Shown here: positions 10,601 through 20,852 of the stretch, piece after piece
Layout of the letters: each line of letters begins with the position of its first letter
Numbering within the stretch: position 1 is the stretch's first letter
Virus record (IMG/VR): IMGVR_UViG_3300031857_001678
Location: 1 to 20,852 of that record
DNA length: 20,852 nucleotides
Strand: one strand, 5' to 3'
DNA from: a virus
The notes under the pieces: generated by a model
The model's database searches: none
The model's input: the letters and a program-made list of their open reading frames with translations, nothing else
Told to the model about the DNA's origin: nothing
Made by a program: the position numbers and the translations under genes

Positions 10601-13600
10601 GGATCCTATCAAACCGGCATCAGATAATTTAAAAGAATCCTCATCTAATTTTGTGATAAAATATTCTCTGGTAGTTGATAGACCAGAAATTCCTACTCCG
10701 GTTGAATTATATTGAATTAAATCTCCAGTGTTAAAATTATGATTCGTAAATGTAACTTCACTCCTTTGCGTCGATATGCCAGAGGATTTTACAATTAATT
10801 TTCTATTCTGGTAGTTTTCACCTTGATTTACAACTTTAATATATGATAATGTTTTTTTATCTACTGTTCTAAATCTATGATTTCCAAATAAGTTTGTTGT
10901 TGTAAATCCTACCGTATTGACACCGACATTGAAATTTTCTAAAGATTCGTAAAGTTGAATTGTTTTATTATTGATTAATTTGGCGTAGTATGACCCACCA
11001 TCGACTAAAGTTCTATTTTGACTTAAATTAGATCCCCCAAAAATTCCAATACCAACATCATTTCCAACAGAACTATAAATTATTTCTTGACCATTTGAAA
11101 ATTTGTGATCTGATGTAAATGTAATAGTTTCGTTTATAATATCAATTCCGCCACCATTTTCAAGTAGTCTCCCATCAAATATTACTTCTCGATATCTAGA
11201 AGCCAAAAATGGTTGCAAAACACAATTTTTTCCATTGCCACCTACAAGATTAACGGAAATAACTCTTTGGATGTCAAAGTCTTGAGGATCAACTAAAACT
11301 TCAGAAATGGAACCACTAATAACTGGTTGGACAAAACAAGTATTCCCAATAGAAGGTGAAACTTCAACATAGGGTGGATTAATGACATCATAATTACTTC
11401 CACCGTTTAAAACATCTAATGATTTTATTGGTCCATAATAAATTTTATCTCCAGACCTTGCATTGATAATTTCAACCCCATTACACATTAATCCAAGGGT
11501 CTTAAGATCTTTTGTAGAATATTTGTCTCCTAATTGAAAATTTCTAGTTAATGGAAATTTCCTAACAATACTCTGTTGACCAATTTGATTTGATTTTTGT
11601 AACGATAATGTAAACGTATGAGATCCATCACTTTCAGATAAAGTTGATAATTTAACATAATTAGAAGATCCTATAAAAGATTTAGACTCATATAATTTAA
11701 TATTATCTTTAGAAACAACTTCGGCATAATATTCTTTACCTGAAGTTAATTCTGGAATATCCGTTATTTCTGACTGGTATACAATTGCATCTCCAGTTCT
11801 AAATGGGTTGTCCTGATCATCAGTTTCTTTTATTTTTACTGTGGTATATTTTTTGGTTACAGGATCTTGATCATTTAAAAATGTTGATGTTGCATTTTCA
11901 ATGGTTTTTTGAATTATATTTTTTTCTATGGTATATGAAGGTAGACCATTGGTGGCAACATAAAAATATTGATCATATTCATTATACACATTTAAAATAT
12001 TTGAAATTAATGCGTTATTTCCAAATTCAATGGGAACATTTGAACTATTTGCTTTTCTTAATTTTCTTCTTAAATCAAAATATCTTCCATAATATGGCTT
12101 TCCTGGATCTAATGAATCAAATGGATCTCCGTTCAAATCAGTTAAACCATTTAAGGAAATTTCCCTATCAACAAAAGTAATAGATGCAACAGTTGCAATA
12201 TTACTTTCAGAAGTTACTAGATCTTGTGTCCCCCTAATTAAAATTTCAACTTCATCTCCTAATTTTAAACTAGATTTATCAATATCACTTTCCAATACTA
12301 ATGTAGAACCGGCAATTGATTTTATTTGATATCTTGAACTTGTATTATAAATCCAACTATTTGCAAATATCTGCTTATCATTTTCATCCCTGTTAGGTAT
12401 AACTTCCCCAATACTCTTAACTCTTATGTATTCATTTTCATTCAATCCATAGATAGAATTATTTTCTTCAATACCATTAATTACACCAGTAATTCTTAAT
12501 CTAACTTCTTTTAAAGTATCTCCATTTTCATATGAAATAACGTATTGATCAATACGAATATCATCACTTGGATTTATAACTTCAGTTATATTTTCACATC
12601 CATAAAATTGATTGAGACTTTTTCCGGAATATTGAATAGTGTTGTTTCCACATATTAATGATCCCGAAAGTGGAAATCCTACTGTACTGTCAACTGAAAT
12701 TATTTCAGATCCGGGTTGAGTTTTTTCAACTACTTTGGTTTTTGCATGAATATCAAATGATCCACTAATTGAAGTCTCCTGGGTATACCCAACAAATAAT
12801 GAAAGTTTATAAAAATATTTTTGCCCCCTCCTAATAATCTCTACATTTGAAACTGCAGCCCGAGATTGGGAATCTATTGAACTATAGATTTCTTGTCCAA
12901 CTATTTTTGTTGGGTCTCCAGATAACCTTTCGGCAATTATTATCTCTTTTCTTAAAAATTCTGCGCTGGATGGTTTTAAAAGATATTTTTCCAGATCAAT
13001 AACTTTAACAGATTCGGCATATAAAACTTTAAATAATATTTTAAATGATTCTTCTGTACCTTTACTTTGATAGAAAGATCTTGCTTCCTTTATAAAGTTT
13101 GCAGCATTAATTTCCCCAGAAAAATCAATATTCTCTAATCCGGGTGTTAATGAATATTTAATCTTATTAAAAAATTCTTTTAAAAATAAAGAACTAAGAT
13201 TGGTTATTGTGGAATTGGATGAATGAGAAGAACTTTTTGATGTTGAGAATACTAAATTTTCTGGATCACTTGGATCATGATAATCTGTTACTCCACTAAA
13301 ACCACGAATACATCCTGTAAATGTATTTGTAGTTATTCCCGTATATGTAATAATTTCATCATCAATCTTAAGCAAACCATATCTTTTTGGAAATCCTTTT
13401 GTACTATTGACAACAATAGTATCATCGGATAAATCAATACTTTCTTCCAAAGAAGTATTATTAGAAATAACCTCCGGAATTAAGTAATCTAATTTTAAAT
13501 AAGAACTTAAATTGTCAAGAATATCAACCGTACCACCGGCATATTCTTGAGAAATATAATATTGTTTTAAAAATTCTGCAGCATTGGGGTTTTCGCTTAA

Positions 13601-13672
13601 AATAAATTCAGGGAGTTGATTGACAACAATATCCTGAATTTTTACTTTTACATCAAAGTTATTTTCTATCAT
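1694..13672 (-). CDS. Giant baseplate/virion structural protein in the gene 7 position
   Basis: This single uninterrupted ORF of 3,992 codons lies between gp6 and gp8, where T4 carries the wedge protein gp7 (1,032 aa). The first ~260 residues look like a wedge or tail core: a helical start, then a segment near residue 195 (FIKEARSFYQSKGTEESFKI) of a type found in phage tail proteins. The rest is beta-rich and repetitive. Family A has HxFxTGDxVxY followed by a YFVxxVDxDTxKLS-like strand, near residues 622, 857, 979, 1650, 1822 and 2949. Family B has GGxGY/SGxxY turns, near 759, 1087, 1130, 1172, 1420, 2050, 2092, 2130, 3375, 3747 and 3792. Family C has GFP..G.L.I..E.I.Y.G, near 93 and 332 with weaker copies near 1575 and 3070. 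Family D is an FIDGVxQxPxxxY-type motif near 3045, 3240 and 3537. A YHYH-type domain spans about 1236-1351. The start has AAGGA 9 nt upstream and follows gp6 after 3 nt. A gp7-equivalent role is inferred from position and N-terminus. Confidence 0.88.
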   Translation of the reverse strand: MIENNFDVKVKIQDIVVNQLPEFILSENPNAAEFLKQYYISQEYAGGTVDILDNLSSYLKLDYLIPEVISNNTSLEESIDLSDDTIVVNSTKGFPKRYGLLKIDDEIITYTGITTNTFTGCIRGFSGVTDYHDPSDPENLVFSTSKSSSHSSNSTITNLSSLFLKEFFNKIKYSLTPGLENIDFSGEINAANFIKEARSFYQSKGTEESFKILFKVLYAESVKVIDLEKYLLKPSSAEFLRKEIIIAERLSGDPTKIVGQEIYSSIDSQSRAAVSNVEIIRRGQKYFYKLSLFVGYTQETSISGSFDIHAKTKVVEKTQPGSEIISVDSTVGFPLSGSLICGNNTIQYSGKSLNQFYGCENITEVINPSDDIRIDQYVISYENGDTLKEVRLRITGVINGIEENNSIYGLNENEYIRVKSIGEVIPNRDENDKQIFANSWIYNTSSRYQIKSIAGSTLVLESDIDKSSLKLGDEVEILIRGTQDLVTSESNIATVASITFVDREISLNGLTDLNGDPFDSLDPGKPYYGRYFDLRRKLRKANSSNVPIEFGNNALISNILNVYNEYDQYFYVATNGLPSYTIEKNIIQKTIENATSTFLNDQDPVTKKYTTVKIKETDDQDNPFRTGDAIVYQSEITDIPELTSGKEYYAEVVSKDNIKLYESKSFIGSSNYVKLSTLSESDGSHTFTLSLQKSNQIGQQSIVRKFPLTRNFQLGDKYSTKDLKTLGLMCNGVEIINARSGDKIYYGPIKSLDVLNGGSNYDVINPPYVEVSPSIGNTCFVQPVISGSISEVLVDPQDFDIQRVISVNLVGGNGKNCVLQPFLASRYREVIFDGRLLENGGGIDIINETITFTSDHKFSNGQEIIYSSVGNDVGIGIFGGSNLSQNRTLVDGGSYYAKLINNKTIQLYESLENFNVGVNTVGFTTTNLFGNHRFRTVDKKTLSYIKVVNQGENYQNRKLIVKSSGISTQRSEVTFTNHNFNTGDLIQYNSTGVGISGLSTTREYFITKLDEDSFKLSDAGLIGSEDTSNFDRRKYVSFASTGSEYHIFKYPDIKIDVVVSYAGTFTGIVTATPIVRGKIVDAYVYESGTGYGSTIINLEKKPLIKIKSGKGGEVRPVIIDGKIMRVEIESSGKEYYSVPRLEVVGDGFGAKLRAIVTNNKISSIVVIDSGREYTESNTKIQVISDGSGAFLDPKIRDLRIDSFRRYGNEILVDTNNNLKYGYLGYDSVIANEEFNDDGSKHSPIIGWAYDGNPIYGSYGYSDPEDPQSDIKALVPGYKITNGAISDRPVGVSTGFFIEDYVFFDSEDLDVYNGRWCKTPQFPNGTYAYFATRNPLTNTSLYPYFIGNNYRSLFVEDNLLLDQTIDINSLGLIRNTFPYKINEKYADNDFIIESNEVASQRLNVDLVSSGSVDSFVITESGSDYKVGDKIIVKNQENDDGVGFNAVVSEVFGRDINSIQTTVEKYNSFTFVWNSTSEVSGFISTYHSLLDNDIITISGISTYINGLQNNHKISVENNLIYLFADLNPSSRVTDIYVSKAIDYIKPDTILKIENEELTVLNIFADKNVLRVIRGNTSAYHPAKTEIKIVPNRFTFPLKTKFFTSKVDNKEYFNPSKCVGIGTTSGVSNSIPDQIGEETLTNSVYTQSIYLPNHKFQTGDLVTLNLPAGSLSGFLVSKNPADSPFNLPSSGLSEDVYVINKTKDTIGIVTSKSLVNSTAGIYFLNTGNANGYDYEYSFETNSNQVTGTVSKIKSLVSLSTSHNLESNDIIRLEVNPNLTVGYGSSSSVKIFYKNDLDQIVANPQFFTNSNVNVSSDEIQILNHGFVTGDKVYYNSDIGSNISGLTTTNYFVYRVDDDTLKLSETLVDVTSNPPNFVNFSSTGGTLHSLSLVHPPLKSYKNNNLFFDLSDSSLNGYQFKIYYDEKFSKEYISSPTENEFNVVGVGSVGISSDASVTINYSANLPQFLYYSLEKTNRTLRSDPDIKYSSRISFENSLYNGNYGITSVGIASTQFYITLNGIPEKLSYVQSDCDSLRYSTLSKNSTGGISDISIVYGGYGYKKIPSFEKIESENGFDASIELKSSSIGKLEKVTVIDQGYEYSVDKSIRPDAYIPPILNLKNVNRVTSIEVLDGGKNYLSSPSITIFDPYDNIVVNSGNLVPKLSSSSISSVEIIEIPYGLSSVNHKLYTENNTNGISISEISNASTVVTCTLVTPVLGFNIAPFSIGDEIFVEGILKNGTTGTGFNSKDYNYKFFTVTNYIPSSPALLEFDLADLTVNPGIAITFSPNANIVNKKNYPEFKVYQEVANFVNNEELLLKKGSSFVGIDLRVISLDADVLKVDGTYDQLKVGDVIKGKLTGVLATISNINSNAGLLEINYSLKQNKDWEKDTGKLNEEYQVLPNNDYFQNLSYSVRSSKTYDELSGPVNQLLHPIGLKNFADVQVSGSSTSFDQEPGETVSTIVLDISEENRVDTINNFDLTLDTNVAENTNISRFIRFKTKRLTNYINCISNLALKIDDISPLFSNLDNRQSNTSTTVDLVDYNENFANFIIEIKDPNSGNIQFSELVTLTDGDKNIFTLEKSSIYSGGNVLGNLYGYVDSSGEQSISLDPTDPYNTDLDIKVLKTNFSSVDVGIGTQSIGFINLNGSTSSVGVGSTASILSVNTADTSALYVSLQILNIDSSEANYVDLYVTHDGTNSYMSEYYFDTTEEQLSSNFIGTFTSTISSGVLTLKCDNITSDNLLIRGKLVGFGSTSLGISTYRFKSTGQPDGDELTCRLQSNYVNSSGSTSVLSVNTEEISSIKSLVKVSIGNTIAMHQVMMIRSGNGDIIVKQYPILSIGSTLGIGTFGSVDGGSTMDMYFYPDPSHTGEMKIQSYNQMFYYLYDELSDPESLEYGNVRESFYLRFFDSINGNRYDKSSFDVRFNGTPIFTKTFNPNNPTVLDPSTGIFTIKNHFFNTGEQLVYTPASTFTSSLPVPLGIGATLNSVGLVTTILPSDVYAIKITNDQFRISTRSDFADLGIGVTFTDTASGNAHQLDMTKKLSKTVISLDGVVQSPIKWSPVSHNLIYNGGQITGSATTFSLTGISTIFPKSILKIDDEYVEVIGVGIGTSTSSEITGIGTYNLVYVSRAVLGSAATVHNDSSEVRVYTGAYDIVKSRLHFISPPKGQNSLDETPSNLPIIKSKFNGRVFLRQDYVTNTLYDDISSQFTGIGQTMTLTVQGINTTGIETGNSLLFINDIFQTPTTENNAGNNYFFTEVGSETKVVFTGITSTNSEIIISDYDVNQNQLPRNGLIVSLGSTPGLGFAPLVGASLTSWSNRVSISSGSITGVSIGSSDYLGSGYYGQVSIGVTQSGHTGNIAVIRANIGSGGTITGFTVVSGGTGYSANPSIIIPEPTYENLSVVGVSRIGVGLTTETGVGLLMNLEVSPSENVGIGSTLFQVSSFKITRPGYGFKLGDVFKPVGLVTAKGLASPVFDFTLTATDIFTDSFSSWQFGELDYMDSIKSLQNGSRKRFPLKYKGELLTFETDDPILNLNSVLIIFIDGVIQDPGTSYQFTGGSSFAFTEAPKAENNISIFFYRGTRDIDTVIVDVVETIKPGDTVRMFKNNYVLGSLTQDSRTVVGIQTSDEIETNLYFGKGIETDVNKYKPLSWTKQKSDKIFNGEYFYKSRNSLESLIYPTAKIIKSVSAADNQIFVDDARFFNYEEDDPGSSVQIIDFNAMIIPQVSLVAASATCVVSSAGTIQSIAILNGGSGYTGLTAELKIASPQNTYTGIGSTAQAFATVVNGSLSTPIVISNPGLGYSISNRPKIIAPFPEFSFENVFDIASVQGFSGIITGIAATTGTGSNPLGIKFNLKISGYSLINVSNFATLNVGYPVLIFDTAVGAGLTSIYVNDSDVVGIGTSFLNNIYTVASISASGINAEIVVNVKSTSNLAGINSIGSNLGKFSWGRLSSMVRKNPISIGISGYTVDVGLSTFPTIQRRGYGFNNSGSVDDNLTG
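2270..11410 (-). repeat. Degenerate GGxGY protein repeats encoded in the giant gene
   Basis: A short motif, hydrophobic-x-V-x-x-G-G-x-x-Y-x-x-x-P-x-I-x-I/V, recurs at least eleven times. Examples are VLNGGSNYDVINPPYVEV near residue 759, VSGGTGYSANPSIIIPEP near 3375 and LNGGSGYTGL near 3747. Some copies lie only ~40 residues apart (1087, 1130, 1172). The same motif occurs twice in gp8, so the family crosses gene boundaries. Confidence 0.7.
4580..11810 (-). repeat. Degenerate HxFxTGD protein repeats encoded in the giant gene
   Basis: At least six coding segments give a strand-turn-strand pattern: H-x-F/L-x-T-G-D/E-x-V-x-Y, a variable loop often holding GISGL or GLTTT, then Y-F/Y-x-x-x-V-D/N-x-D-T/S-x-K/Q-L-S/Y. 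Clear copies are HNFNTGDLIQYN near residue 979, HGFVTGDKVYYN near 1822 and HFFNTGEQLVYTP near 2949; NPFRTGDAIVYQ near 622, HKFSNGQEIIYSS near 857 and HKFQTGDLVTLN near 1650 are more divergent. The copies are dispersed, not tandem, and the DNA has diverged, so this is an old modular expansion. Confidence 0.7.
9618..9966 (-). other. YHYH-type domain inside the giant baseplate protein
   Basis: Residues about 1236-1351 contain SPIIGWAYDGNPIYGSYGY, then a VSTGFFIEDYVF segment, LDVYNGRWCKTPQFPNGTYA with an aromatic YFATRNP, and finally YPYFIGNNYRSLF. The G-W-A-x-D-G-x-P-I-Y-G core and the N-G-R ... P-x-G-T-Y-A-Y-F part match the YHYH family (PF14240, by recall), usually found in secreted bacterial proteins of uncertain function. 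It differs clearly from the surrounding beta repeats. Its role in the virion is unknown; surface or ligand contact is a guess. Confidence 0.65.
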
Positions 13673-13675
13673 TGC

Positions 13676-15604
13676 TTATTTCCTTTTTAATTCCCCATTT
13701 GAATAGCTTGAAGTATAATAATCTCTAATAAATGTTGATCCGGAAATATCATCTCCAGATGAAATAACATCTCTTATCATATTTATAGTGCTCTTATTAA
13801 GAGCGAAACTTAAATATAAATCTTTGAGACCAACCACATCATTAGATTCTGGATACGCTTGAATTTCAATAATATCATTAGGTACTATAGTTGAAGTAAT
13901 ATTAAGAGTATTTAATATTATTTCTCCAGAATTGTAATCAATTGTTCCTGCCGATTTAATCACAACTGGATATGTGCCCAATTGTTTACTTTCTTTAACA
14001 ATAGATAATACTCCCATTCCACTACCATCCAGATTTCCAGATGCATCTTTATTAGGAATGTCTGTAAAATAAACAGTATCCGGAAGACCCGATAATGTAA
14101 ATCCAGTACTTTTAATATTAAAACCGTCAGGGTTAATATGGAATTTATTTCCAAAGCACAATTCATATTGGGCAAATCTATTTAATGCAGCATTCAGATC
14201 TCTTCTAATAATAACCTTTGTAATATTAGAAGTTATAGAATTATCAACATTATCGATAATTTGAAGCAATTTACTGTACTTAAATCTACCACCAAACTTA
14301 TTTACATTTACCGAATTGGCATAAAGATCTAGTGAGTTAATAACATTTGTCCTTAAACTATCAACATTACTAACTTGACTTGAATTGTAGTAAATTGAAC
14401 TATCAATTTCAACATAAAGAACTTTAAGATCTACAATTTCTTGGGAAATGCCACTTAAAGAATAATTTTTTAGTTTTGATAAAATATTTTTTTTATCAAA
14501 ATCTGACACTAAAGATCCATTTTTTGGTTTAATACTAATGAAAACTTTTCCGTATTGTGGTGGGATTAAGTCTTCTCCACCAACAACAGAAACAGATTCT
14601 GTATTTGGGTATATTTGTTGAATGATTGATTCATAGTCTCTTCCAGTAACTGCTCTATATTGCGAAGAATAAACTCTAGGAGCAAAATATTTAATAGATT
14701 CTATGGGCTCTATATCACCACCATTAGATGCCGAACTTATGGTACTAACAATAACAGAGTCAGTTGGAATGACTGTTGCACCAGATGCTGATGATAGAAC
14801 GCCAGAAAAAATAAAATTAGATGGTCCATTCCCATCCTTTCCATTGGTAATGATATAAGTGACTGTGATTACGGAATTATTTTCTAATTTTTTACCAAAA
14901 AATCCATCACCAAAAAGAATTTCATACTTTTCGTCTTTTATTTCTTGAATTAAGTATGATTTTGAATCGCCAGTTATATTTAAAATATTATCTATTCTTG
15001 CATATTCTACACCTTCCCCAGTATCATTAACTCCCTTAACTTTTACAACAATAGTTGAAGTGTCTATAAAGGAGTTATCTAAAATAAATCTCTGATTTAC
15101 TGAAGTATCAACCGTGAACTGTTTTTTAATTAATGTCCCCTGATATACATGGATTGGATCATTAGCAGTTCCAAATGTTGCAACTCCATTATTGACTACT
15201 GTTGTTATATTATTTGGTATTGAAAAAATATATGAAGTTTCGTTATATGATCCAGAGCAAACTATACCTCTATTTAAAGTTAAAGTCGGTGAAGATGTTT
15301 CGGTGGCAACATCAAAGGCAATTAGTGCTTTTGCTGAAGATCTAGAGCGAGGAACATATCCTATCGTCCTTGCAAGAGAGACAACATTTTCTCTAATAGT
15401 TGCAGAATCCAAGAAGGATTCATTAACAACCATATTTGCATTGAATGATGTTATATAAGTGTTATATGCTAACGTATCAATTAAAACTGAAAAGTTAGAT
15501 CCATCAAAGTCAAAATCAGTGAACTTTGAATTTGATCGAAGATAATCTTTAATTGATGTTTTTATCTGATCAAAATCTAGATCAGTAAATTTGGTAAAAG
15601 GCAT
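13676..15604 (-). CDS. gp6: Baseplate wedge subunit gp6 (baseplate J-like)
   Basis: gp6 forms the heterotrimeric wedge core with gp7 and dimerises around the T4 baseplate. The 642-aa length is close to T4 gp6 (660 aa). The N-terminus carries FTDFDFDGSNFSVLIDTLAYN and a VNESFLDSATIRENVVSLAR segment, matching T4 landmarks (FLDYDFEGSRLNVLCDLLAYN, YESFMRTANLRSSVVQAA). Near residue 229 the ILFGDGFFGKKLENNSVITV segment followed by NGKDGNG is the typical signature of the baseplate-J superfamily, and RAVTGRDYE near residue 321 also fits it. The start ATG is separated by 1 nt from the gp25 stop; the stop precedes the giant gene by 3 nt and its last codons supply that gene's AAGGA. This is a late structural operon with tight translational coupling. 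Confidence 0.94.
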   Translation of the reverse strand: MPFTKFTDLDFDQIKTSIKDYLRSNSKFTDFDFDGSNFSVLIDTLAYNTYITSFNANMVVNESFLDSATIRENVVSLARTIGYVPRSRSSAKALIAFDVATETSSPTLTLNRGIVCSGSYNETSYIFSIPNNITTVVNNGVATFGTANDPIHVYQGTLIKKQFTVDTSVNQRFILDNSFIDTSTIVVKVKGVNDTGEGVEYARIDNILNITGDSKSYLIQEIKDEKYEILFGDGFFGKKLENNSVITVTYIITNGKDGNGPSNFIFSGVLSSASGATVIPTDSVIVSTISSASNGGDIEPIESIKYFAPRVYSSQYRAVTGRDYESIIQQIYPNTESVSVVGGEDLIPPQYGKVFISIKPKNGSLVSDFDKKNILSKLKNYSLSGISQEIVDLKVLYVEIDSSIYYNSSQVSNVDSLRTNVINSLDLYANSVNVNKFGGRFKYSKLLQIIDNVDNSITSNITKVIIRRDLNAALNRFAQYELCFGNKFHINPDGFNIKSTGFTLSGLPDTVYFTDIPNKDASGNLDGSGMGVLSIVKESKQLGTYPVVIKSAGTIDYNSGEIILNTLNITSTIVPNDIIEIQAYPESNDVVGLKDLYLSFALNKSTINMIRDVISSGDDISGSTFIRDYYTSSYSNGELKRK

Positions 15605-16719: not shown

Positions 16720-17305
16720 TTATAAAAAATCCTTTTCTTTTGTAATCACAATCTTTAATAAAATTTGCATTTTCGGTATAATTATCGTCCCAGACTGGTA
16801 TTGCAACTGAATTATTGTATCTAAAGTCAGGATTTCTGCGAAAATGGACTTCAATTAGGTGTCCATTGATGAATTCACAGTTAATCCACTCATAATTACC
16901 CTTTAATTTTTTTAAAATTTCGGGAAAATCAACCTTTTTTTCTATTTTTTCCCATTTTTTCCATTTATAGTAAGGATCATTAGAATTTTTGGTTCCTAAA
17001 ACAACCAAATCAACCTCTTGATGATGAAAATCGACACTTAAGTGATCACCCTCAAAGATTTCACACCAAAATTCGGCAGGGTGCATGTCATCTGTACTGC
17101 TTTCAATCCATTCTTTACGAGCCAGACGCCCCATTCCTAGTAAATTAAAAGATGGACGTACAATATAAAAGTCGGGATTAGGAACCGTGGTCCCGGAAGG
17201 ACCACATGTATAACCTAAAACCCGACTTAAAAATAATTTATTGTATATCCAAAGATCATCGGAGTGTATATGATTCCATTCATCATTACAGTCCAGATGA
17301 TACAT
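16715..17305 (-). CDS. Conserved cyanophage protein, possibly ATP-grasp-like, 196 aa
   Basis: It starts MYHLDCNDEWNHIHSDDLWI. Central elements are PDFYIVRPSFNLLGMGR followed by an Arg/Lys pair, HPAEFWCEIFEGDHLSVDFH, then EWINCEFINGHLIEVHFRRN PDF near residues 140-160, and AIPVWDD. The pattern of a basic residue in a strand followed by a Gly-rich loop, then an acidic 'EIFEG' strand, then 'INGHLIEVHFR' resembles ATP-grasp ligases (nucleotide-binding Lys/Arg and the final Glu/Asn metal site), but the protein is short and lacks a clear N-terminal domain. The reaction and substrate are unknown. Its ATG shares one base with the stop of the 50-aa gene (TAATG), so the two are translationally coupled; speD follows 11 nt downstream. 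Confidence 0.7.
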   Translation of the reverse strand: MYHLDCNDEWNHIHSDDLWIYNKLFLSRVLGYTCGPSGTTVPNPDFYIVRPSFNLLGMGRLARKEWIESSTDDMHPAEFWCEIFEGDHLSVDFHHQEVDLVVLGTKNSNDPYYKWKKWEKIEKKVDFPEILKKLKGNYEWINCEFINGHLIEVHFRRNPDFRYNNSVAIPVWDDNYTENANFIKDCDYKRKGFFIK

Positions 17306-17457
17306 TACCTTTTTCCTTGTCCTCTGTATTTCTTTCTAGCCCCATTGCGAGACGAGGCGGAATACTTTGTTCCACTGCCCGCACCTTGCCTAGACTTCTT
17401 GGGAGCTCCTGGAGTATAAGAAGTCTTACTACTCAGACTAGTTTTTACTTTCGCCAT
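17305..17457 (-). CDS. Small basic Lys/Arg/Ser-rich protein, 50 aa
   Basis: The frame runs from ATG 17457 (MAKVKTSLSSKTSYTPGAPK) to TAA 17307-17305. It is low in hydrophobic residues and rich in Lys, Arg, Ser and Gly, ending RKKYRGQGKR, so it is likely disordered and able to bind nucleic acid. Short basic proteins of this kind with a TPGxPKK element occur near this position in cyanophage genomes, as far as I recall; no function is known. It overlaps the end of the 70-aa gene by 20 nt in another frame, and its stop overlaps the next ATG as TAATG. This compact packing on both sides supports it as a real gene despite its length. Confidence 0.75.
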   Translation of the reverse strand: MAKVKTSLSSKTSYTPGAPKKSRQGAGSGTKYSASSRNGARKKYRGQGKR

Positions 17458-17650
17458 TTTTTAATTCTCCAATAATTTCAGTTTCTATATTCTCCGGAAG
17501 AGGTAATCCGGTCTGATAATACTCGACTGCAAGGTCTTCCATAACATCAAAGTACTCTTGTTCTGAAAGGGCAGTGTAAATTCTCCGCCCATTGCAGATG
17601 ATGTTGTATTTGGAAATCTGTATTTGATTGCTAGTCAATTGTTGTGACAT
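17438..17650 (-). CDS. Conserved small cyanophage protein with YxIxxNGRxIYxxLSExEYFD motif, 70 aa
   Basis: I start it at ATG 17650, which forms TGATG with the glycosyltransferase stop; a longer in-frame extension into that gene (17701) has no support. The core YNIICNGRRIYTALSEQEYF, followed by DVMEDLAVEYYQTGLPLP, reads as two short strands and a helix ending in an acidic stretch. The 63-aa gene at 18458-18649 has the same plan (YHVYHKNNCIYHSLSEEEFH), so the two are probable paralogues. Function is unknown; the fold would fit a small adaptor or inhibitor. It is in the operon led by the glycosyltransferase. Confidence 0.82.
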   Translation of the reverse strand: MSQQLTSNQIQISKYNIICNGRRIYTALSEQEYFDVMEDLAVEYYQTGLPLPENIETEIIGELKNGESKN

Positions 17651-18408
17651 CAGATGACTCTTGTTTTTTCGTGACCGACTCGTACCCGAGGGTCGCACCA
17701 AATTTCAAATCCTGCTTCAATTGCATCTAGACAGAATGATACATCTTCCCCACACATATCCTGCACTTCTCCGGATTCGAAGACCTGCATTTTAGGTGCG
17801 AACCAGGGGTACTTCATATTTTCGTTTTCGAAGACTCCATTCTTAATCAGAAGCCAACCGAATCCGGTATAATCAACTGTGAAGGGCTTCTTTCTCTTTG
17901 CCATGGTTTCCAGAGTTTCATGATTCATGACTCCACCATTATTTCTAAAGTCATTCTCTTCCAACCAGTGTGCAACTGATGTTGTCATACCATCTTCTGT
18001 ACAGTACCAACCAGCTGCAATATCTTTTTCCATCAGAACTAGTTGAAGAAATTTTTCGGTATTGAAGACAATATCCGAATCAATCCAAAGTTGCCAATCA
18101 TAATTTAATTTACCGTCCCAGGGCAATTGGTCCGGACCTCTTAAAACATTTGCACCCAGACACTTGCATCTGGCAAAATTAACCATGGAAGAATAGTCTT
18201 GAGAAATTTGAATGCTTGCACCTGCCTGTACAATATCAAAACATAACTGAACAAAACTCTTTAGGTAGGTATAGGAGACTCCTCTTCCAGGAAGACAAAA
18301 GACGATGCTCTTGCCTCTGATCATTTCCTTTGCTCTATTGTAATCCCACTCCTCAACATCTTTTGTTGTGGTGGGGTTCTTTGCTTTTACAGTAAATCCT
18401 TTAGACAT
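17650..18408 (-). CDS. GT-A fold glycosyltransferase-like protein, 252 aa
   Basis: The N-terminal region holds SIVFCLPGRGVSYTYLKSF, the first strand of a nucleotide-sugar domain with a Gly/Arg loop. NYDWQLWIDSDIVF near residue 105-118 carries the D-x-D metal/nucleotide-sugar motif. CGEDVSFCLDAIEAGF near residues 218-233 is the acidic 'ED' element that often holds the catalytic base, and VRVGHEK near the end supplies a metal-binding His. Together these are typical of GT-A enzymes, similar to glycosyltransferases often seen in cyanophages. Donor and acceptor are unknown; modification of virion proteins, phage DNA or host surface sugars are all possible. It is the first gene behind a strong sigma-70-like promoter and overlaps the next gene as TGATG. 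Confidence 0.85.
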   Translation of the reverse strand: MSKGFTVKAKNPTTTKDVEEWDYNRAKEMIRGKSIVFCLPGRGVSYTYLKSFVQLCFDIVQAGASIQISQDYSSMVNFARCKCLGANVLRGPDQLPWDGKLNYDWQLWIDSDIVFNTEKFLQLVLMEKDIAAGWYCTEDGMTTSVAHWLEENDFRNNGGVMNHETLETMAKRKKPFTVDYTGFGWLLIKNGVFENENMKYPWFAPKMQVFESGEVQDMCGEDVSFCLDAIEAGFEIWCDPRVRVGHEKTRVI

Positions 18409-18432
18409 AAAATTAATGGTTTTTATTTCATA

Positions 18433-18461
18433 ATCATACAGTATTATATAGAATTTGTCAA
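18433..18461 (-). promoter_or_regulatory. Near-consensus sigma-70 promoter for the glycosyltransferase-speD operon
   Basis: The minus strand has TTGACA (18461-18456), a 17-bp spacer and TATGAT (18438-18433): a perfect -35, ideal spacing and 5/6 in the -10. The start of the 252-aa gene lies 24 nt after the -10. The -35 overlaps the TGA stop of the 63-aa gene. This is the best host-type promoter in the A+T-rich part and indicates early or middle expression by host RNA polymerase. Confidence 0.78.
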
Positions 18462-18649
18462 TGAGATGAATTGAAACTCAAATCTTTGCTGAAGAGTACT
18501 TTTTCATAACTTATGTCATGTTTTTCGACTCCACCAATTACACTGATTAAATTGTTCAGTGTGCTCCAGGTTTGGTGAAATTCCTCTTCTGATAGAGAGT
18601 GATAGATGCAATTATTTTTGTGATAGACATGATATCTTATTTCACTCAT
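18458..18649 (-). CDS. Small protein, paralogue of the 70-aa YxxxxNxxxIYxxLSExEF family, 63 aa
   Basis: The product starts MSEIRYHVYHKNNCIYHSLS and continues EEEFHQTWSTLNNLIS. The pattern Y-x-V/I-x-x-N-x-x-x-I-Y-x-x-L-S-E-x-E-F/Y is shared with the 70-aa protein at 17438-17650; the C-terminal halves differ. Function is unknown. It overlaps the upstream 58-aa gene by 8 nt (ATGAGTGA), so translation is coupled, and its stop codon lies within the -35 of the next promoter. Confidence 0.78.
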   Translation of the reverse strand: MSEIRYHVYHKNNCIYHSLSEEEFHQTWSTLNNLISVIGGVEKHDISYEKVLFSKDLSFNSSH

Positions 18650-18818
18650 ATTTGTGCTCTCTCAATATAAGTTCGTTTCCTTCAACGGTAAAATTAATCG
18701 GAGTTTCTTCGTACCAACTGATTTCATTGACGATCCACTCTGGAATAATAACATGATATTCTCCCGTAATTGGATCGACTTCTATGAACTTAATTTCTTC
18801 GCCGGATTTTTTTTTCAT
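18642..18818 (-). CDS. 58-aa protein resembling AbrB/MazE swapped-hairpin DNA-binding domains
   Basis: Read from ATG 18818 (MKKKSGEEIKFIEVDPITGE) to TGA 18644-18642. The central YHVIIPEWIVNEISWYEETP, then INFTVEGNELILRE, follows the SpoVT/AbrB pattern V-x-I-P-x-x-I-x-x-x-h, a polar loop, a strand, then x-G-x-x-h-h-h. Small proteins of this family bind DNA as dimers, often as antitoxins or transition-state regulators. No toxin gene is seen next to it, so a regulator is more likely than an antitoxin. The similarity is at motif level only and the family call is an inference. It overlaps the next gene by 8 nt and is the last gene before the compositional break. Confidence 0.72.
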   Translation of the reverse strand: MKKKSGEEIKFIEVDPITGEYHVIIPEWIVNEISWYEETPINFTVEGNELILREHKYE

Positions 18819-18824
18819 ATTCGT

Positions 18825-18855
18825 TATATAAAATCTTTTTTTTCTTTTTTATATA
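18825..18855. repeat. A+T-only inverted repeat in the intergenic tract
   Basis: TATATAAAA (18825-18833) and TTTTATATA (18847-18855) form a perfect 9-bp inverted repeat around a pyrimidine-only 13-nt spacer (on the plus strand). It sits directly upstream of the 58-aa gene. It may be a weak hairpin, a melting site or a protein-binding site; alternating T/A stretches pair by chance easily. Confidence 0.35.
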
Positions 18856-18931
18856 GCGAAATTTTTTTTTATGTGAGTGTTATATTTAACTCGCTTCCGT
18901 AACACTTTGTAGGTTAGGGTAGTTATGCGTT

Positions 18932-18937
18932 TTTATA
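18932..18937 (-). promoter_or_regulatory. Candidate -10 (TATAAA) of a sixth array-type promoter/leader
   Basis: TATAAA is followed by 26 nt that are almost free of G (AACGCATAACTACCCTAACC then TACAAA) and then a GTG at 18905. The -10 to start distance equals that of three array genes. The GTG opens a Lys/Arg-rich 38-codon frame running through the A+T-rich tract and out of frame into the 58-aa gene; that frame is probably not a gene. The promoter may instead serve the 58-aa gene with a ~110-nt leader. Confidence 0.4.
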
Positions 18938-19012
18938 ACCGCGCCCCGCCGGGGACATAACAAACGCCCCCCAATTAACTGCTGATTCACGAACGAAGGC
19001 ACTGGGGCAGGG

Positions 19013-19186
19013 TCACCCCCGCACTTCGTCAGAATGAACCTCAGCGAACTGTGCCGCCCATACGGTGGCAGGGATGCCCACGGGGTAAACCATAGCGGGA
19101 TTCTCATTCCAGGCGCTGCCGTCGTTACGGTAGGAGACCCACACGGTCTGGCGGTCCTTGAGGCGGGTGGCAGGGGAGAGGCGCAT
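19013..19186 (-). CDS. Array mini-gene 4, hypothetical protein, 57 aa
   Basis: I start it at ATG 19186 (MRLSPATRLKDRQTVWVSYR) because the frame's apparent N-terminal extension (MLQLTQFNQPPP) is the translated promoter and leader, identical in the next unit. The product then has NDGSAWNENPAMVYPVG and an Ala-rich helix-like stretch, WAAQFAEV. No family recognised; no signal peptide, membrane segment or cysteine. The G+C-rich codon usage is unlike the A+T-rich neighbours. The stop is written GGGGG-TGA-CCCTGCCCC, as in the other units. An alternative frame at 18886-19107 overlaps it and is less convincing. Confidence 0.6.
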   Translation of the reverse strand: MRLSPATRLKDRQTVWVSYRNDGSAWNENPAMVYPVGIPATVWAAQFAEVHSDEVRG

Positions 19187-19188
19187 CG

Positions 19189-19224
19189 GAGGCGGTTGGT
19201 TGAACTGGGTTAATTGTAGCACGT
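19189..19224 (-). repeat. 36-bp direct repeat, copy 1 (promoter plus leader)
   Basis: This segment is identical over 36 bases to 19426-19461. It holds ACGTGCTACAAT and the leader TAACCCAGTTCAACCAACCG followed by CCTC, ending 2 nt before the start codon. Outside the repeat the two genes are unrelated, so it is a shared regulatory module, not a gene duplication in full. Confidence 0.9.
19213..19221 (-). promoter_or_regulatory. Extended -10 promoter (TGCTACAAT) of array mini-gene 4
   Basis: TGC-TACAAT matches an extended -10 (TGNTAnAAT). The -10 ends 26 nt before the ATG at 19186. No well-placed -35 exists: TTGACC occurs upstream but with a 20-bp spacer. The whole element is within the 36-bp direct repeat. 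Confidence 0.62.
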
Positions 19225-19235
19225 AACGGGGCAGG

Positions 19236-19250
19236 GGGGGTCAATCCCCC
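19236..19250 (-). terminator. Stop-codon hairpin of mini-gene 3
   Basis: The minus strand reads GGGGG-ATTGA-CCCCC: a 5-bp G/C stem with the TGA stop in and beside the loop. There is no U-tract, so it is not a classical intrinsic terminator; it could pause polymerase or stabilise the 3' end. Confidence 0.4.
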
Positions 19251-19423
19251 ATCGCTTCCTTCAATGCCTCAAACGCTGCCATCCAATGGGCGGCGTCGGC
19301 GTGTTTGCCAGCAAGGCGCTCATCCACGGCAAAGCACAGCACGGCGGTTCGGATGGTGCCCCAAGTCCCGTCGGGCAGGGTGAGGGTGGTAAGGTTCTCA
19401 GCGTTCCAGGGGGAGGCGGTCAT
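19241..19423 (-). CDS. Array mini-gene 3, hypothetical protein, 60 aa
   Basis: The start is ATG 19423 (MTASPWNAENLTTLTLPDGT), two nt after the direct repeat; the longer frame beginning in the repeat is translated leader. After WGTIRTAVLCFAVDERLAG it has a helix-like segment rich in Ala (ADAAHWMAAFEALKEAMGD). No family recognised. The stop lies in a GGGGG-ATTGA-CCCCC inverted repeat at 19236-19250, next to the promoter of mini-gene 4. Composition is G+C-rich. Confidence 0.62.
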   Translation of the reverse strand: MTASPWNAENLTTLTLPDGTWGTIRTAVLCFAVDERLAGKHADAAHWMAAFEALKEAMGD

Positions 19424-19425
19424 GA

Positions 19426-19461
19426 GAGGCGGTTGGTTGAACTGGGTTAATTGTAGCACGT
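19426..19461 (-). repeat. 36-bp direct repeat, copy 2 (promoter plus leader)
   Basis: Identical over 36 bases to 19189-19224; centre-to-centre distance is 237 bp. It carries the extended -10 TGCTACAAT and leader of mini-gene 3. The third array promoter (19662-19670) keeps the core ATTGTAGCACGTAACGGGG (plus strand) in common with copy 1 but has a different leader. Confidence 0.9.
19450..19458 (-). promoter_or_regulatory. Extended -10 promoter (TGCTACAAT) of array mini-gene 3
   Basis: TGC-TACAAT ends 26 nt before the ATG at 19423, the same spacing as for mini-gene 4. CTGACC, which includes the stop of mini-gene 2, lies 16 bp upstream and could act as a weak -35. Confidence 0.62.
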
Positions 19462-19473
19462 CGGGGGGCGGGG

Positions 19474-19638
19474 TCAGACCATATGGTCCGCCAGACCCCA
19501 GTTAATCACAATCAGGTCGGGGTTCAGGCGAGCGCAGGTGTCCCATGCCTGCTGGGCGGTTTCTGCCATGTAGGACAGGGTGACCTGCCGACGCTGGCGA
19601 GTGTGGAAACCGGTGAACAGGAAACTGGATTCGGTCAT
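19474..19638 (-). CDS. Array mini-gene 2, hypothetical protein, 54 aa
   Basis: The start is ATG 19638 (MTESSFLFTGFHTRQRRQVT); the in-frame extension MLQYSQPTPPP is translated leader. The segment LSYMAETAQQAWDTCARLNP resembles the strand-helix 'xxAxTxxxAWxxAxxL' unit of many tiny phage proteins, and its A-x-x-AWD-x-C-x-x-L core recurs in mini-gene 1. It ends DLIVINWGLADHMV. Function unknown. The last codons include a 12-bp palindrome, GACCATATGGTC (19477-19488), immediately before the TGA. Confidence 0.65.
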   Translation of the reverse strand: MTESSFLFTGFHTRQRRQVTLSYMAETAQQAWDTCARLNPDLIVINWGLADHMV

Positions 19639-19661
19639 GGGGGGGGGTGTCGGTTGAGAGT

Positions 19662-19670
19662 ATTGTAGCA
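19662..19670 (-). promoter_or_regulatory. Extended -10 promoter (TGCTACAAT) of array mini-gene 2
   Basis: TGC-TACAAT ends 23 nt before the ATG at 19638. Its upstream side, CGTTACG, equals that of mini-gene 4. The leader (ACTCTCAACCGACACC then a run of C) has a single G. Confidence 0.62.
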
Positions 19671-19682
19671 CGTAACGGGGGG

Positions 19683-19844
19683 TCAGCGCCCGTCAGTGTA
19701 GTCTCCGATGATGACCCCGTTGCAGCGGACCTGAGCGTACCCGTACTCTTCAGACAGATCCAGGCAGAGGTCCCATGCACGGTCGGCATCGGTGGTAGTG
19801 TTCTCCCAGGGAGCGGCGGGGCAGATCACGTCAAGGCGGGTCAT
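19683..19844 (-). CDS. Array mini-gene 1, hypothetical protein, 53 aa
   Basis: Read from ATG 19844 (MTRLDVICPAAPWENTTTDA) to TGA 19685-19683. The centre is DRAWDLCLDLSEEYGYAQVR, then CNGVIIGDYTDGR, a helix-to-strand arrangement with a possible hairpin end. The A-x-x-AWD-x-C-x-x-L stretch matches mini-gene 2, suggesting distant paralogues or a common fold. Function unknown. Its promoter follows a 16-nt G/C hairpin. The stop reads GGGCGC-TGA-CCCCCC, matching the array style. Confidence 0.65.
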   Translation of the reverse strand: MTRLDVICPAAPWENTTTDADRAWDLCLDLSEEYGYAQVRCNGVIIGDYTDGR

Positions 19845-19869
19845 TTGGTTCGTTTGCTTTGGTTCCCTT

Positions 19870-19875
19870 AGTATA
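19870..19875 (-). promoter_or_regulatory. -10 promoter (TATACT) of array mini-gene 1
   Basis: TATACT ends 25 nt before the ATG at 19844. The leader reads AAGGGAACCAAAGCAAACGA then ACCAA. There is no recognisable -35; the expected place is filled by a GGGGGT-TCTG-ACCCCC hairpin. Confidence 0.58.
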
Positions 19876-19891
19876 GGGGGTCAGAACCCCC
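19876..19891 (-). repeat. G/C hairpin abutting the mini-gene 1 promoter
   Basis: A 6-bp perfect stem (GGGGGT/ACCCCC) with a 4-nt loop. The minus strand reads ...TCTGACCCCC directly before TATACT. TGACCCC is the word that ends each array gene, so this may be the 3' remnant of a lost unit. Confidence 0.45.
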
Positions 19892-19902
19892 CCAAGCGGA
19901 AA

Positions 19903-19932
19903 CCCTGTGCCAGTGGTTTGACTGGCACAGGG
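19903..19932 (-). terminator. Strong hairpin terminator after the 70-aa gene
   Basis: CCCTGTGCCAGT (19903-19914) and ACTGGCACAGGG (19921-19932) make a perfect 12-bp stem with a 6-nt loop. It starts 18 nt after the stop of the gene at 19950 on the minus strand and is followed there by TTTCC. The U-run is short, but the stem is the strongest in the window. Confidence 0.72.
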
Positions 19933-19949
19933 CAGAGGGCAGTTATCTA

Positions 19950-20162
19950 TTAGAATTGAATTTCACTCAGAGTAGGAGCAGCAGCGGAATCAGAACCGCC
20001 ACTGTCAGAAACCCCATCAGCAATTGAATCAAGAATTTGGAGAATTTGCTCACCATTGGAACCTTGGCGAAGGAGTGAGAGAATGACATCGCGGGACATT
20101 TGAGTATACATTAGAGAGTGTAATTTGGTGGGTTTAAAGTCATCACCAGGACTCCAATTCAT
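19950..20162 (-). CDS. Hypothetical protein with RQGxNGEQILxILD helix motif, 70 aa
   Basis: The start ATG at 20162 shares ATGA with the stop of the 53-aa gene. The N-terminus is MNWSPGDDFKPTKLHSLMYT; the middle QMSRDVILSLLRQGSNGEQI, followed by LQILDSIAD, predicts a helix-turn-helix-like pair of amphipathic helices; the C-terminus is Ser/Gly/Asp/Ala-rich and probably disordered. I recall similar 'LLRxGxxGxxILxILD' proteins in cyanophages and marine cyanobacteria but cannot name a family. It closes the 20607-19950 operon and is followed by a strong hairpin terminator. Confidence 0.75.
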   Translation of the reverse strand: MNWSPGDDFKPTKLHSLMYTQMSRDVILSLLRQGSNGEQILQILDSIADGVSDSGGSDSAAAPTLSEIQF

Positions 20163-20320
20163 CGACCCATTGGCATATGCAGCAGGCGGAAGTCATCCTC
20201 TATCCATGAGAAATAAACCCAGATTTTGTCAACGAATTTTGTAGTCTTCTTCAGGTAATATTTGTCGGAGGGTGAGAGTTTGCGGTAAACTTTGCCGTTG
20301 CTGATGTGAATCGTTTTCAT
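20159..20320 (-). CDS. Hypothetical protein, 53 aa
   Basis: Read from ATG 20320 (MKTIHISNGKVYRKLSPSDK) to TGA 20161-20159. It is basic in the first half and has an aromatic, acidic second part (FVDKIWVYFSWIEDDFRLLH). There is no signal peptide; the hydrophobic stretch is too short and charged for a membrane helix. No family recognised. It starts 26 nt after the NYETWN gene behind a G-free leader (ATCTAACTCACTCATCACAA then ACTCCA) and overlaps the next gene by 4 nt (ATGA), which supports it as coding. Confidence 0.68.
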   Translation of the reverse strand: MKTIHISNGKVYRKLSPSDKYYLKKTTKFVDKIWVYFSWIEDDFRLLHMPMGR

Positions 20321-20346
20321 TGGAGTTTGTGATGAGTGAGTTAGAT

Positions 20347-20607
20347 TCAGAAGTCGAAAACGTCGCCGTTGATTTCTGCGCGATTGACTTTAGGGTCGTT
20401 CCACTTCACACCGTCAGGGGTTTCTTTGGTGCCGAATTCATAGAACATTTCCAGCAGTTCTTCATAGCAGCAGATGTCATTTTGATCAATCAATTCTTGA
20501 ATGCCTTCATCATTCTGAATCCACAGAACCACGTTCCAGGTTTCATAATTCGTCCAACCGTTGTAGGTTGTATCGGTGAGGCAAGTCTGGTAGGTTGCGG
20601 TTGCCAT
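20347..20607 (-). CDS. NYETWN-type phage protein (probably DUF7249 family), 86 aa
   Basis: The start is ATG 20607 (MATATYQTCLTDTTYNGWTN); the frame's extra MIHTKQPNQ upstream is promoter/leader. The motif YNGWTNYETWNVVLWIQNDE (residues 15-34) is a hallmark of a small protein family widespread in phages and plasmids of many hosts, which I believe is DUF7249; its function is unknown. The rest is acidic (DICCYEELLEMFYEF, then WNDPKVNRAEINGDVFDF). It suggests that the G+C-rich part is also of mobile-element origin. It leads a three-gene unit with the 53- and 70-aa genes. Confidence 0.82.
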   Translation of the reverse strand: MATATYQTCLTDTTYNGWTNYETWNVVLWIQNDEGIQELIDQNDICCYEELLEMFYEFGTKETPDGVKWNDPKVNRAEINGDVFDF

Positions 20608-20633
20608 TTGGTTGGGTTGCTTGGTATGAATCA

Positions 20634-20639
20634 ATTATA
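20634..20639 (-). promoter_or_regulatory. -10 promoter (TATAAT) of the NYETWN operon
   Basis: A consensus TATAAT ends 26 nt before ATG 20607. The leader TGATTCATACCAAGCAACCC then AACCAA has the same A/C-rich, AACCAA-ending form as mini-genes 1, 3 and 4. No -35 match is present at the usual distance. Confidence 0.65.
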
Positions 20640-20660
20640 AGGGGTGGAAGTGCCGTTCTG

Positions 20661-20692
20661 GGGGAACCTTGTGCCAGTTCCCCAAGTGGCAC
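20661..20692 (-). terminator. Competing hairpins between the partial gene and the NYETWN operon
   Basis: Two mutually exclusive stems exist: GTGCCA/TGGCAC (20671-20676 with 20687-20692) and GGGGAAC/GTTCCCC (20661-20667 with 20677-20683). They follow the stop of the partial gene directly and precede the TATAAT. Without a U-tract they are a weak terminator candidate or a switch between two folds. Confidence 0.42.
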
Positions 20693-20852
20693 TCAGCAAC
20701 CCATCCGCTGGCAAAGTGCCTCCAAATTCTTTTCAACTTGCTCGCTGAAAAGGGATTCTTGAATCACCTCCCGAATCTTCAGCAGAGCATAATCATATCC
20801 TTCATCATTCGTCAGTTGATTCTGATACTTTTCAGCAGTGGAGTAGCAGTCA
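20693..20852 (-). CDS. Hypothetical protein, C-terminal 52 residues
   Basis: The frame enters from the window edge and ends at TGA 20695-20693. The visible part is DCYSTAEKYQNQLTNDEGYD, then YALLKIREVIQESLFSEQVE and KNLEALCQRMGC. It is helix-rich and acidic, with a heptad-like Leu/Ile spacing in the middle. No family recognised; the N-terminus is missing. Composition is intermediate, like the NYETWN operon. Confidence 0.65.
   Translation of the reverse strand, partial: DCYSTAEKYQNQLTNDEGYDYALLKIREVIQESLFSEQVEKNLEALCQRMGC

Follow-up and report, generated by a model that had tools for sequence, protein, structure and literature searches.

Promoter early stem-loops (PeSLs) of T4-type phages, a term connected with Arbiol in 2010 and Comeau in 2014, are reportedly early-promoter cassettes repeated among the small genes of plastic regions, and they are said to have been interpreted as sites of homologous exchange. 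Among T4-like cyanophages, a hot-spot of small ORFs with poorly conserved synteny and freshwater relatives has been described in S-PM2 as the ORFanage (PMC4503421). Puxty in 2015 judged PeSLs unlikely at the ORFanage owing to low density, and proposed mispackaging or illegitimate recombination; within the portion of the PeSL literature that was found, it was the sole cyanophage study, and it argued against PeSLs at its ORFanage (PMC4503421). Comparable repeats are mentioned in three other reports: intergenic repeats of halovirus HF2 carry promoters, as shown with reporters, and repeats of this type keep conserved positions within the genus (PMC8707807), a repeated motif of HGTV-1 was likened to PeSLs and to shuffling (PMC3950731), and the start-associated sequence (SAS) of cluster K mycobacteriophages is a 13-bp site containing a Shine-Dalgarno (SD) sequence, with a proposed role in translation (PMC3203893).

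The window analysed here is a whole IMG/VR record of 20,852 bases with the gene order of a T4-like freshwater cyanophage. T4-type baseplate neighbours and a cyanophage gene order placed it among the T4-like cyanophages (Kyanoviridae): as in S-SRM01, baseplate wedge genes and a SAM decarboxylase gene are followed by the flanking genes of an array of small genes (the names of the flanking genes come partly from annotation of other phages). A 3992-aa open frame (1694-13672) is placed like the long 'baseplate wedge initiator' gene of S-SRM01. The array, A-B-C-D-N1-N2, comes after glycosyltransferase-like and AbrB-like genes; its members are about 55 aa long, with roughly one promoter-leader apiece, and its site is a conserved hot-spot adjoining the baseplate and glycosyltransferase-like genes (Table 1). 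The 58-aa flanking gene at the array edge, which we take to be AbrB-like, lay beside the array in 39 of 48 contigs compared. In S-CREM1, a small 'MazE antitoxin' gene was observed ahead of the baseplate genes. Bordering the shuffled array, non-coding positions 18880-18937 were 91% identical to intergenic DNA in S-SRM01 and had a related match, at 77%, in S-SM2; they could have been kept as a regulatory element or as a recombination anchor.

Table 1. Positions of the repeat copies, array genes and neighbouring features in the window
Feature	Coordinates	Strand	Remarks
Promoter-leader copy 1, before gene A	19189..19224	minus	extended -10 TGCTACAAT 19213-19221, hexamer 19213-19218
Promoter-leader copy 2, before gene B	19426..19461	minus	extended -10 19450-19458, hexamer 19450-19455
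Gene A, 57 aa	19013..19186	minus	family of 43 members in 48 contigs, mostly beside the presumed AbrB-like gene
Gene B, 60 aa	19241..19423	minus	family of 20 members
Gene C, 54 aa	19474..19638	minus	missing in L001 type; leader differs in L010
Leader of gene C	19639..19673	minus	CGTGCTACAATACTCTCAACCGACACC...; ACGTGCTACAAT common with the 36-mer, rest differs
Gene D, 53 aa	19683..19844	minus	family of 26 members; PHROG 17176
Promoter-leader of gene D	19845..19875	minus	TATACT as predicted -10, separate leader class
PeSL-like composite: strong stem-loop CCCTGTGCCAGT...ACTGGCACAGGG ahead of the promoter of D	19903..19932	minus	folded 19850-19945: z -4.2
N1 gene, far side of array	19950..20099	minus	-
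Conserved flanking gene	17650..18408	minus	annotated glycosyltransferase in some cyanophages
Conserved flanking gene, array edge, 58 aa	18642..18818	minus	weak PHROG antitoxin match, E 0.0086

The starts of genes A and B are preceded by an exact direct repeat with a maximal exact length of 36 nt, its two copies lying in the same orientation at a spacing of 237 nt. On the minus strand it reads ACGTGCTACAATTAACCCAGTTCAACCAACCGCCTC, followed in both copies by two bases and then by the ATG of A (19186) or B (19423), which confirmed the perfect repeat ending two bases before each start codon described in an earlier note on this DNA. When up to 3 mismatches were allowed, the 35-nt core matched these two sites only in the window, and nowhere in 100 dinucleotide shuffles of it. 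Each copy is composed of a predicted extended -10 (TGCTACAAT) and an unstructured leader of about 25 nt; the predicted fold of the 36-mer leader was 0 kcal/mol, no constant -35 was found with the extended -10 of the modules, and the 36-mer leader was devoid of an SD core.

The coding parts behind the copies are unrelated, as had also been claimed, since an ungapped comparison of A and B DNA gave 48 identities over 174 positions and BLASTP zero alignments. Direct orientation and short spacing would be expected if a gene had been duplicated in tandem with its leader and one coding part had then been replaced or had diverged, but A and B cannot be aligned, they belong to separate widespread families, and an identical leader without coding similarity demands extreme rate differences; family data thus largely refuted this origin, which is extremely improbable. 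Both A and B behave as real genes because pS was far above pN between the window and L001 alleles (A: pS 0.197, pN 0.015; B: pS 0.163, pN 0.029); across alleles of B, pS ranged from 0.14 to 0.19 and pN from 0.007 to 0.073. Pfam yielded zero matches for A-D, PHROG matches of array proteins were restricted to groups without assigned function, the AlphaFold model of A was of low confidence (pLDDT 65, pTM 0.35), and protein A had zero matches in a tblastn search of an annotated phage collection.

The repeat could also be coding, if different proteins began with one common N-terminal peptide, MLQLTQFNQPP..., read from a GTG start. In the window, the frame from the GTG of CGTGCTACAAT is indeed open and leads in phase into both ATGs; however, it overlaps the predicted -10, the peptide is absent from orthologues with other leaders, and 25 distinct GTG leaders were divided into 12 in frame and 13 out of frame. 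These 13 of 25 ruled out such a peptide as a general rule, and a coding 36-mer is very unlikely.

The set of 48 contigs used for comparison comprised records with the 35-mer or its degenerate form and records reached via gene A (30 loci); L012-L021 and L035-L045, being repeats of contigs already in the set, were excluded from counts. Gene starts in these contigs are predicted, and many contigs are fragmentary. Gene-order, repeat and homology-end comparisons include near-identical records, with pairs that are not independent; the leader permutation test and the upstream-family counts were based on 32 contigs, near-duplicates having been removed from the 48. The search in related contigs proposed by the earlier note located the 35-mer core in 11 other IMG/VR records with 10 different dataset numbers, as two copies in five and one copy in six. 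Two of these six single-copy records were cut at the contig end, and L010 had a second copy with one mismatch. A degenerate form was present in 24 IMG/VR records. Assembly duplication or chimerism, which has to be considered for a metagenome contig such as the window, is most unlikely because the 35-mer recurs in 11 records from 10 dataset numbers, five of them with both copies; analogous repeats in isolates with complete genomes (S-CAM7, S-PM2 and S-CRM01) also argue against it.

Across the 48 contigs the flanks were stable and the array was re-ordered. Gene orders were N1-D-C-B-A in the window and in L010, N1-D-B-A in L001, N1-D-A in L011, N1-D-C-E-B-X-Y-A in L005, N1-D-NL-TP-A in L029 and H-B-I-K-N1-TP-A-Y in L059, and nine upstream families were counted before A and seven before B (32 contigs). 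In 23 of the 48 contigs (not de-duplicated), exact repeats measuring 22 nt or more were detected whose two copies each stood immediately ahead of an ORF. Their sequence differed by contig group, with lengths of 40 nt in L024, 36 nt in L031, 33 nt in L056 and 34 nt in L057.

Gene B was found behind C, D or E, and the 36-mer was unbroken in all three settings. The ends of homology were located by ungapped extension of homologues with at least 85% nucleotide identity and different neighbours. In 98 non-independent pairs with different upstream genes, homology upstream of the ATG ended at 0-13 or 30-50 nt, once at 69 nt, and therefore the leader appears to move either with its own gene or with the neighbour; past the stop codon, the median distance at which homology ended was 6 nt (IQR 4-8, 94 pairs). 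By these alignments, the breaks lie at both edges of the promoter-leader module. Against this, homology was frequently lost close to the ATG among orthologues sharing their neighbour as well (lower quartile 4 nt), and the extension stops at indels because it is ungapped.

The earlier note had suggested looking for a relative missing the segment between the copies, and L011 is such a contig. Both of its flanks were of L001 type at nearly all diagnostic sites, its gene A was the window allele at 10 of 10 diagnostic sites, and B was missing; the alleles changed within the 36-mer and changed back right after the stop codon of A. Judged by its sequence, L011 is the predicted recombinant without the inter-copy segment, being a single mosaic record on a 5.3-kb metagenome contig for which chimeric assembly is possible. 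The proposal that the repeat is a recombination site exchanging units was thus supported by L011, by the three upstream genes of B behind the same 36-mer, and by the occurrence of the same gene with different leaders. One such case was gene C of L010, 98% identical to that of the window, whose leader was the 36-mer with one mismatch and matched the leader of B within the same contig. For gene C of L005, the 25 leader mismatches stem from a single-base offset within a run of C and not from a leader swap.

With the first ATG taken as the start, 127 of 153 cassette genes had a -10-like hexamer 27-39 nt (47 in two cases) ahead of it, a count which was inflated to 145 of 153 when starts were picked with preference for an upstream TAnnnT. 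The label 'promoter plus leader' given previously was in this respect borne out as a prediction. AT-rich core genes also scored for a -10 (63 of 83), at scattered distances. Of 145 cassette leaders, 84 had CAGTTC after the -10 and 7 a -35-like TTGAC; SD-like cores were AAGGA in 8, GGAG in 2, GAGG in 1 and AGGAG in 0. A PeSL would have a sigma70-type early promoter; the corresponding observations here are the predicted extended -10, the -10-like hexamer at 127 of 153 starts and the TTGAC of 7 leaders. Motif matches were confined to one strand in 26 of 27 records, 24 of the 27 having been preselected by a related pattern. The leaders of A (one allele comparison) and B had 0 mismatches over 36 nt between alleles with pS of 0.14-0.20, and are therefore constrained or homogenised.

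This invariance, together with the CAGTTC frequency and the single-strand matches in the mostly preselected records, would also fit selection alone, acting on a fixed regulatory leader (promoter plus 5' tag for a phage or host factor) with recombination being incidental. However, orthologues of A, C and D have quite different leaders, different contigs repeat different perfect sequences, and identity extends to the non-motif 3' part of the repeat, e.g. CAACCAACCGCCTC. Orthologues of D at 82-93% identity carried several unrelated leaders, so no one sequence is required. The many leaders on orthologous genes imply that selection alone fails to explain perfect identity within a genome, and we consider it unlikely.

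Leaders of different genes resembled each other more within a contig than chance predicts, with a mean likeness of 0.487, compared with 0.466 after permutation (sd 0.0037, maximum 0.478; 1000 label permutations). Counting against this, pairs at least 0.85 identical amounted to 7 of 625 within contigs, a fraction equalled by the highest of 1000 permutations. We conclude that the overall shape of the leaders (TAnnnT about 28-34 nt before the ATG, A/C-rich, G-poor) is dictated by promoter function and their exact identity by copying. Recent copying and selection had been put forward as alternatives; the either/or did not hold, the promoter being constrained and orthologous genes having many different leaders.

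The modules resemble PeSLs in occurring as several near-identical copies per genome inside plastic regions and, on comparative evidence, in coinciding with junctions of unrelated genes. They differ in that a promoter-coupled stem-loop (terminator) was lacking at the two 36-mers of the window, which are not classical PeSLs because their hairpins were weak at most (z -1.7 and -2.0, without U-tract). A stem-loop was predicted for the module of D, and upstream of the promoter in 26 of 133 modules (z<-2.5; control 2 of 133), and PeSL-like composites of this family occurred in L051 (50 nt) and S-CRM01. Relative to PeSLs, the CAGTTC/CAACCAACC leader with extended -10 is cyanophage-specific, and the shared part reaches the ATG. 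The 36-mer would work like a PeSL and its family includes PeSL-like composites, but the 36-mer itself is not called a PeSL here. Some modules are immediately preceded by a strong stem-loop (19903-19932 in the window, 3259-3288 in L073) of the form GTGCCAGT...ACTGGCAC, which resembles the stem-loop half of a PeSL; in S-CAM7, the stem-loop upstream of modules, GGGGGCTAGGCAAGCCCCC, was itself repeated. A search of Rfam with positions 17000-20852 returned just two sub-threshold chance matches.

Among the other systems, SAS sites are likewise short repeats in one orientation a few nt before starts of unrelated non-structural genes; the SAS is a GGGATAGGAGCCC-type 13-bp site whose SD core precedes the start by 3-7 bp (PMC3203893), whereas the cyanophage repeat holds a -10 and has no SD. 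HF2 and HGTV-1 share repeated intergenic sequences, those of HF2 carrying promoters, but they are archaeal viruses with another promoter type (PMC8707807, PMC3950731), and positions in HF2 are conserved within the genus (PMC8707807) whereas the order of the cyanophage array is shuffled. Like the S-PM2 ORFanage (PMC4503421), the array is a small-ORF hot-spot of a T4-like cyanophage in which gene order is poorly preserved.

Cultured cyanophages displayed similar repeats. When the leader was searched against the phage collection, it matched at E=2 only and in S-CAM7 records alone, and S-CAM7 was examined for repeats because the leader match stops there 3 nt ahead of an annotated CDS. The array of S-CAM7 likewise lies just ahead of gp25. 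This phage has seven exact copies of the 27-mer CTGCTACAATTGATTCATACCAAACAA, all of them on the coding strand, and of 18 repeat intervals 12 ended no more than 16 nt from an annotated start, whereas 2000 random placements averaged 1.17 and peaked at 6. In S-PM2, repeats of 41, 44 and 39 nt ran into ATGs at 21.5-24.6 kb, outside the published ORFanage deletion (5,799-15,339; PMC4503421). One leader repeat of this S-PM2 region (L075, 21532-24620) precedes a protein starting MTPATCLKTRQI, like family A by eye. S-CRM01 carried repeats of 54 and 34 nt with a stem-loop-like part; its composite repeats (L076; 52-54 plus 27-34 nt, at 1435-1523, 2738-2826 and 4892-4981) look like a hairpin, promoter and SD leader before small genes. 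The DSL-LC02 and S-SRM01 regions had one leader-like repeat apiece, and the S-CREM1 region had zero repeats of at least 20 nt.

Third-position GC of families A, B, C and D averaged 0.72-0.80 in all contigs (6-43 members each), against 0.20-0.32 for flanking phage genes, and the split was weaker in S-CAM7 (array mean 0.50, baseplate genes 0.28-0.30). The stability of the high values in relatives argues against recent import; they perhaps reflect early genes with host-like codon use. A host origin was also sought in GTDB genome contigs: TGCTACAATTAACNCAGTTC had 0 exact matches, and a profile search for the A family gave 33 pattern hits, 0 of them confirmed.

Our preferred explanation, which we hold to be probable, is that the 36-mers are early promoter-leader modules doubling as short-homology joints for cassette shuffling. 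Each would be a compact early-type promoter with an extended -10 and no conserved -35, driving one small gene through a short, G-poor, unstructured, SD-free and untranslated leader. The phage would keep a hot-spot array of small, probably early, genes with about one module each, and modules could also serve as short-homology joints because they resemble one another and are sometimes identical. Recombination, presumably by T4-type machinery during mixed infection, would join the module before one gene to the module before another, whereby whole genes would be deleted, inserted or re-ordered with undamaged reading frames and leaders would be copied between genes. We infer that homology causes exchange and does not merely survive it. 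More tentatively, and with somewhat less confidence than an even chance would warrant, the array may be an open cassette system, in which small, GC-rich, individually promoted early genes are swapped across T4-like cyanophage lineages at a fixed chromosomal socket, the promoter-leader being the universal adapter, with leaders homogenised per genome by copying.

The earlier note did not foresee that the modules extend across the whole array, that they recur in isolates or that they can be linked with PeSLs. The putative PeSL-like joints in cyanophages stand in contrast to the 2015 judgement against PeSLs at the ORFanage. There is no settled account of how cyanophages acquire and shed their numerous small orphan genes; joints were seen here at base resolution in natural populations and are present also in S-CAM7, S-PM2 and S-CRM01, and the question is therefore testable at the bench in cultured phages. 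The modules offer a compact candidate for an early promoter in phages of freshwater picocyanobacteria, as well as a means of delimiting cassette genes. If the open cassette system is true, an incoming gene with a compatible leader would be spliced in ready for expression.
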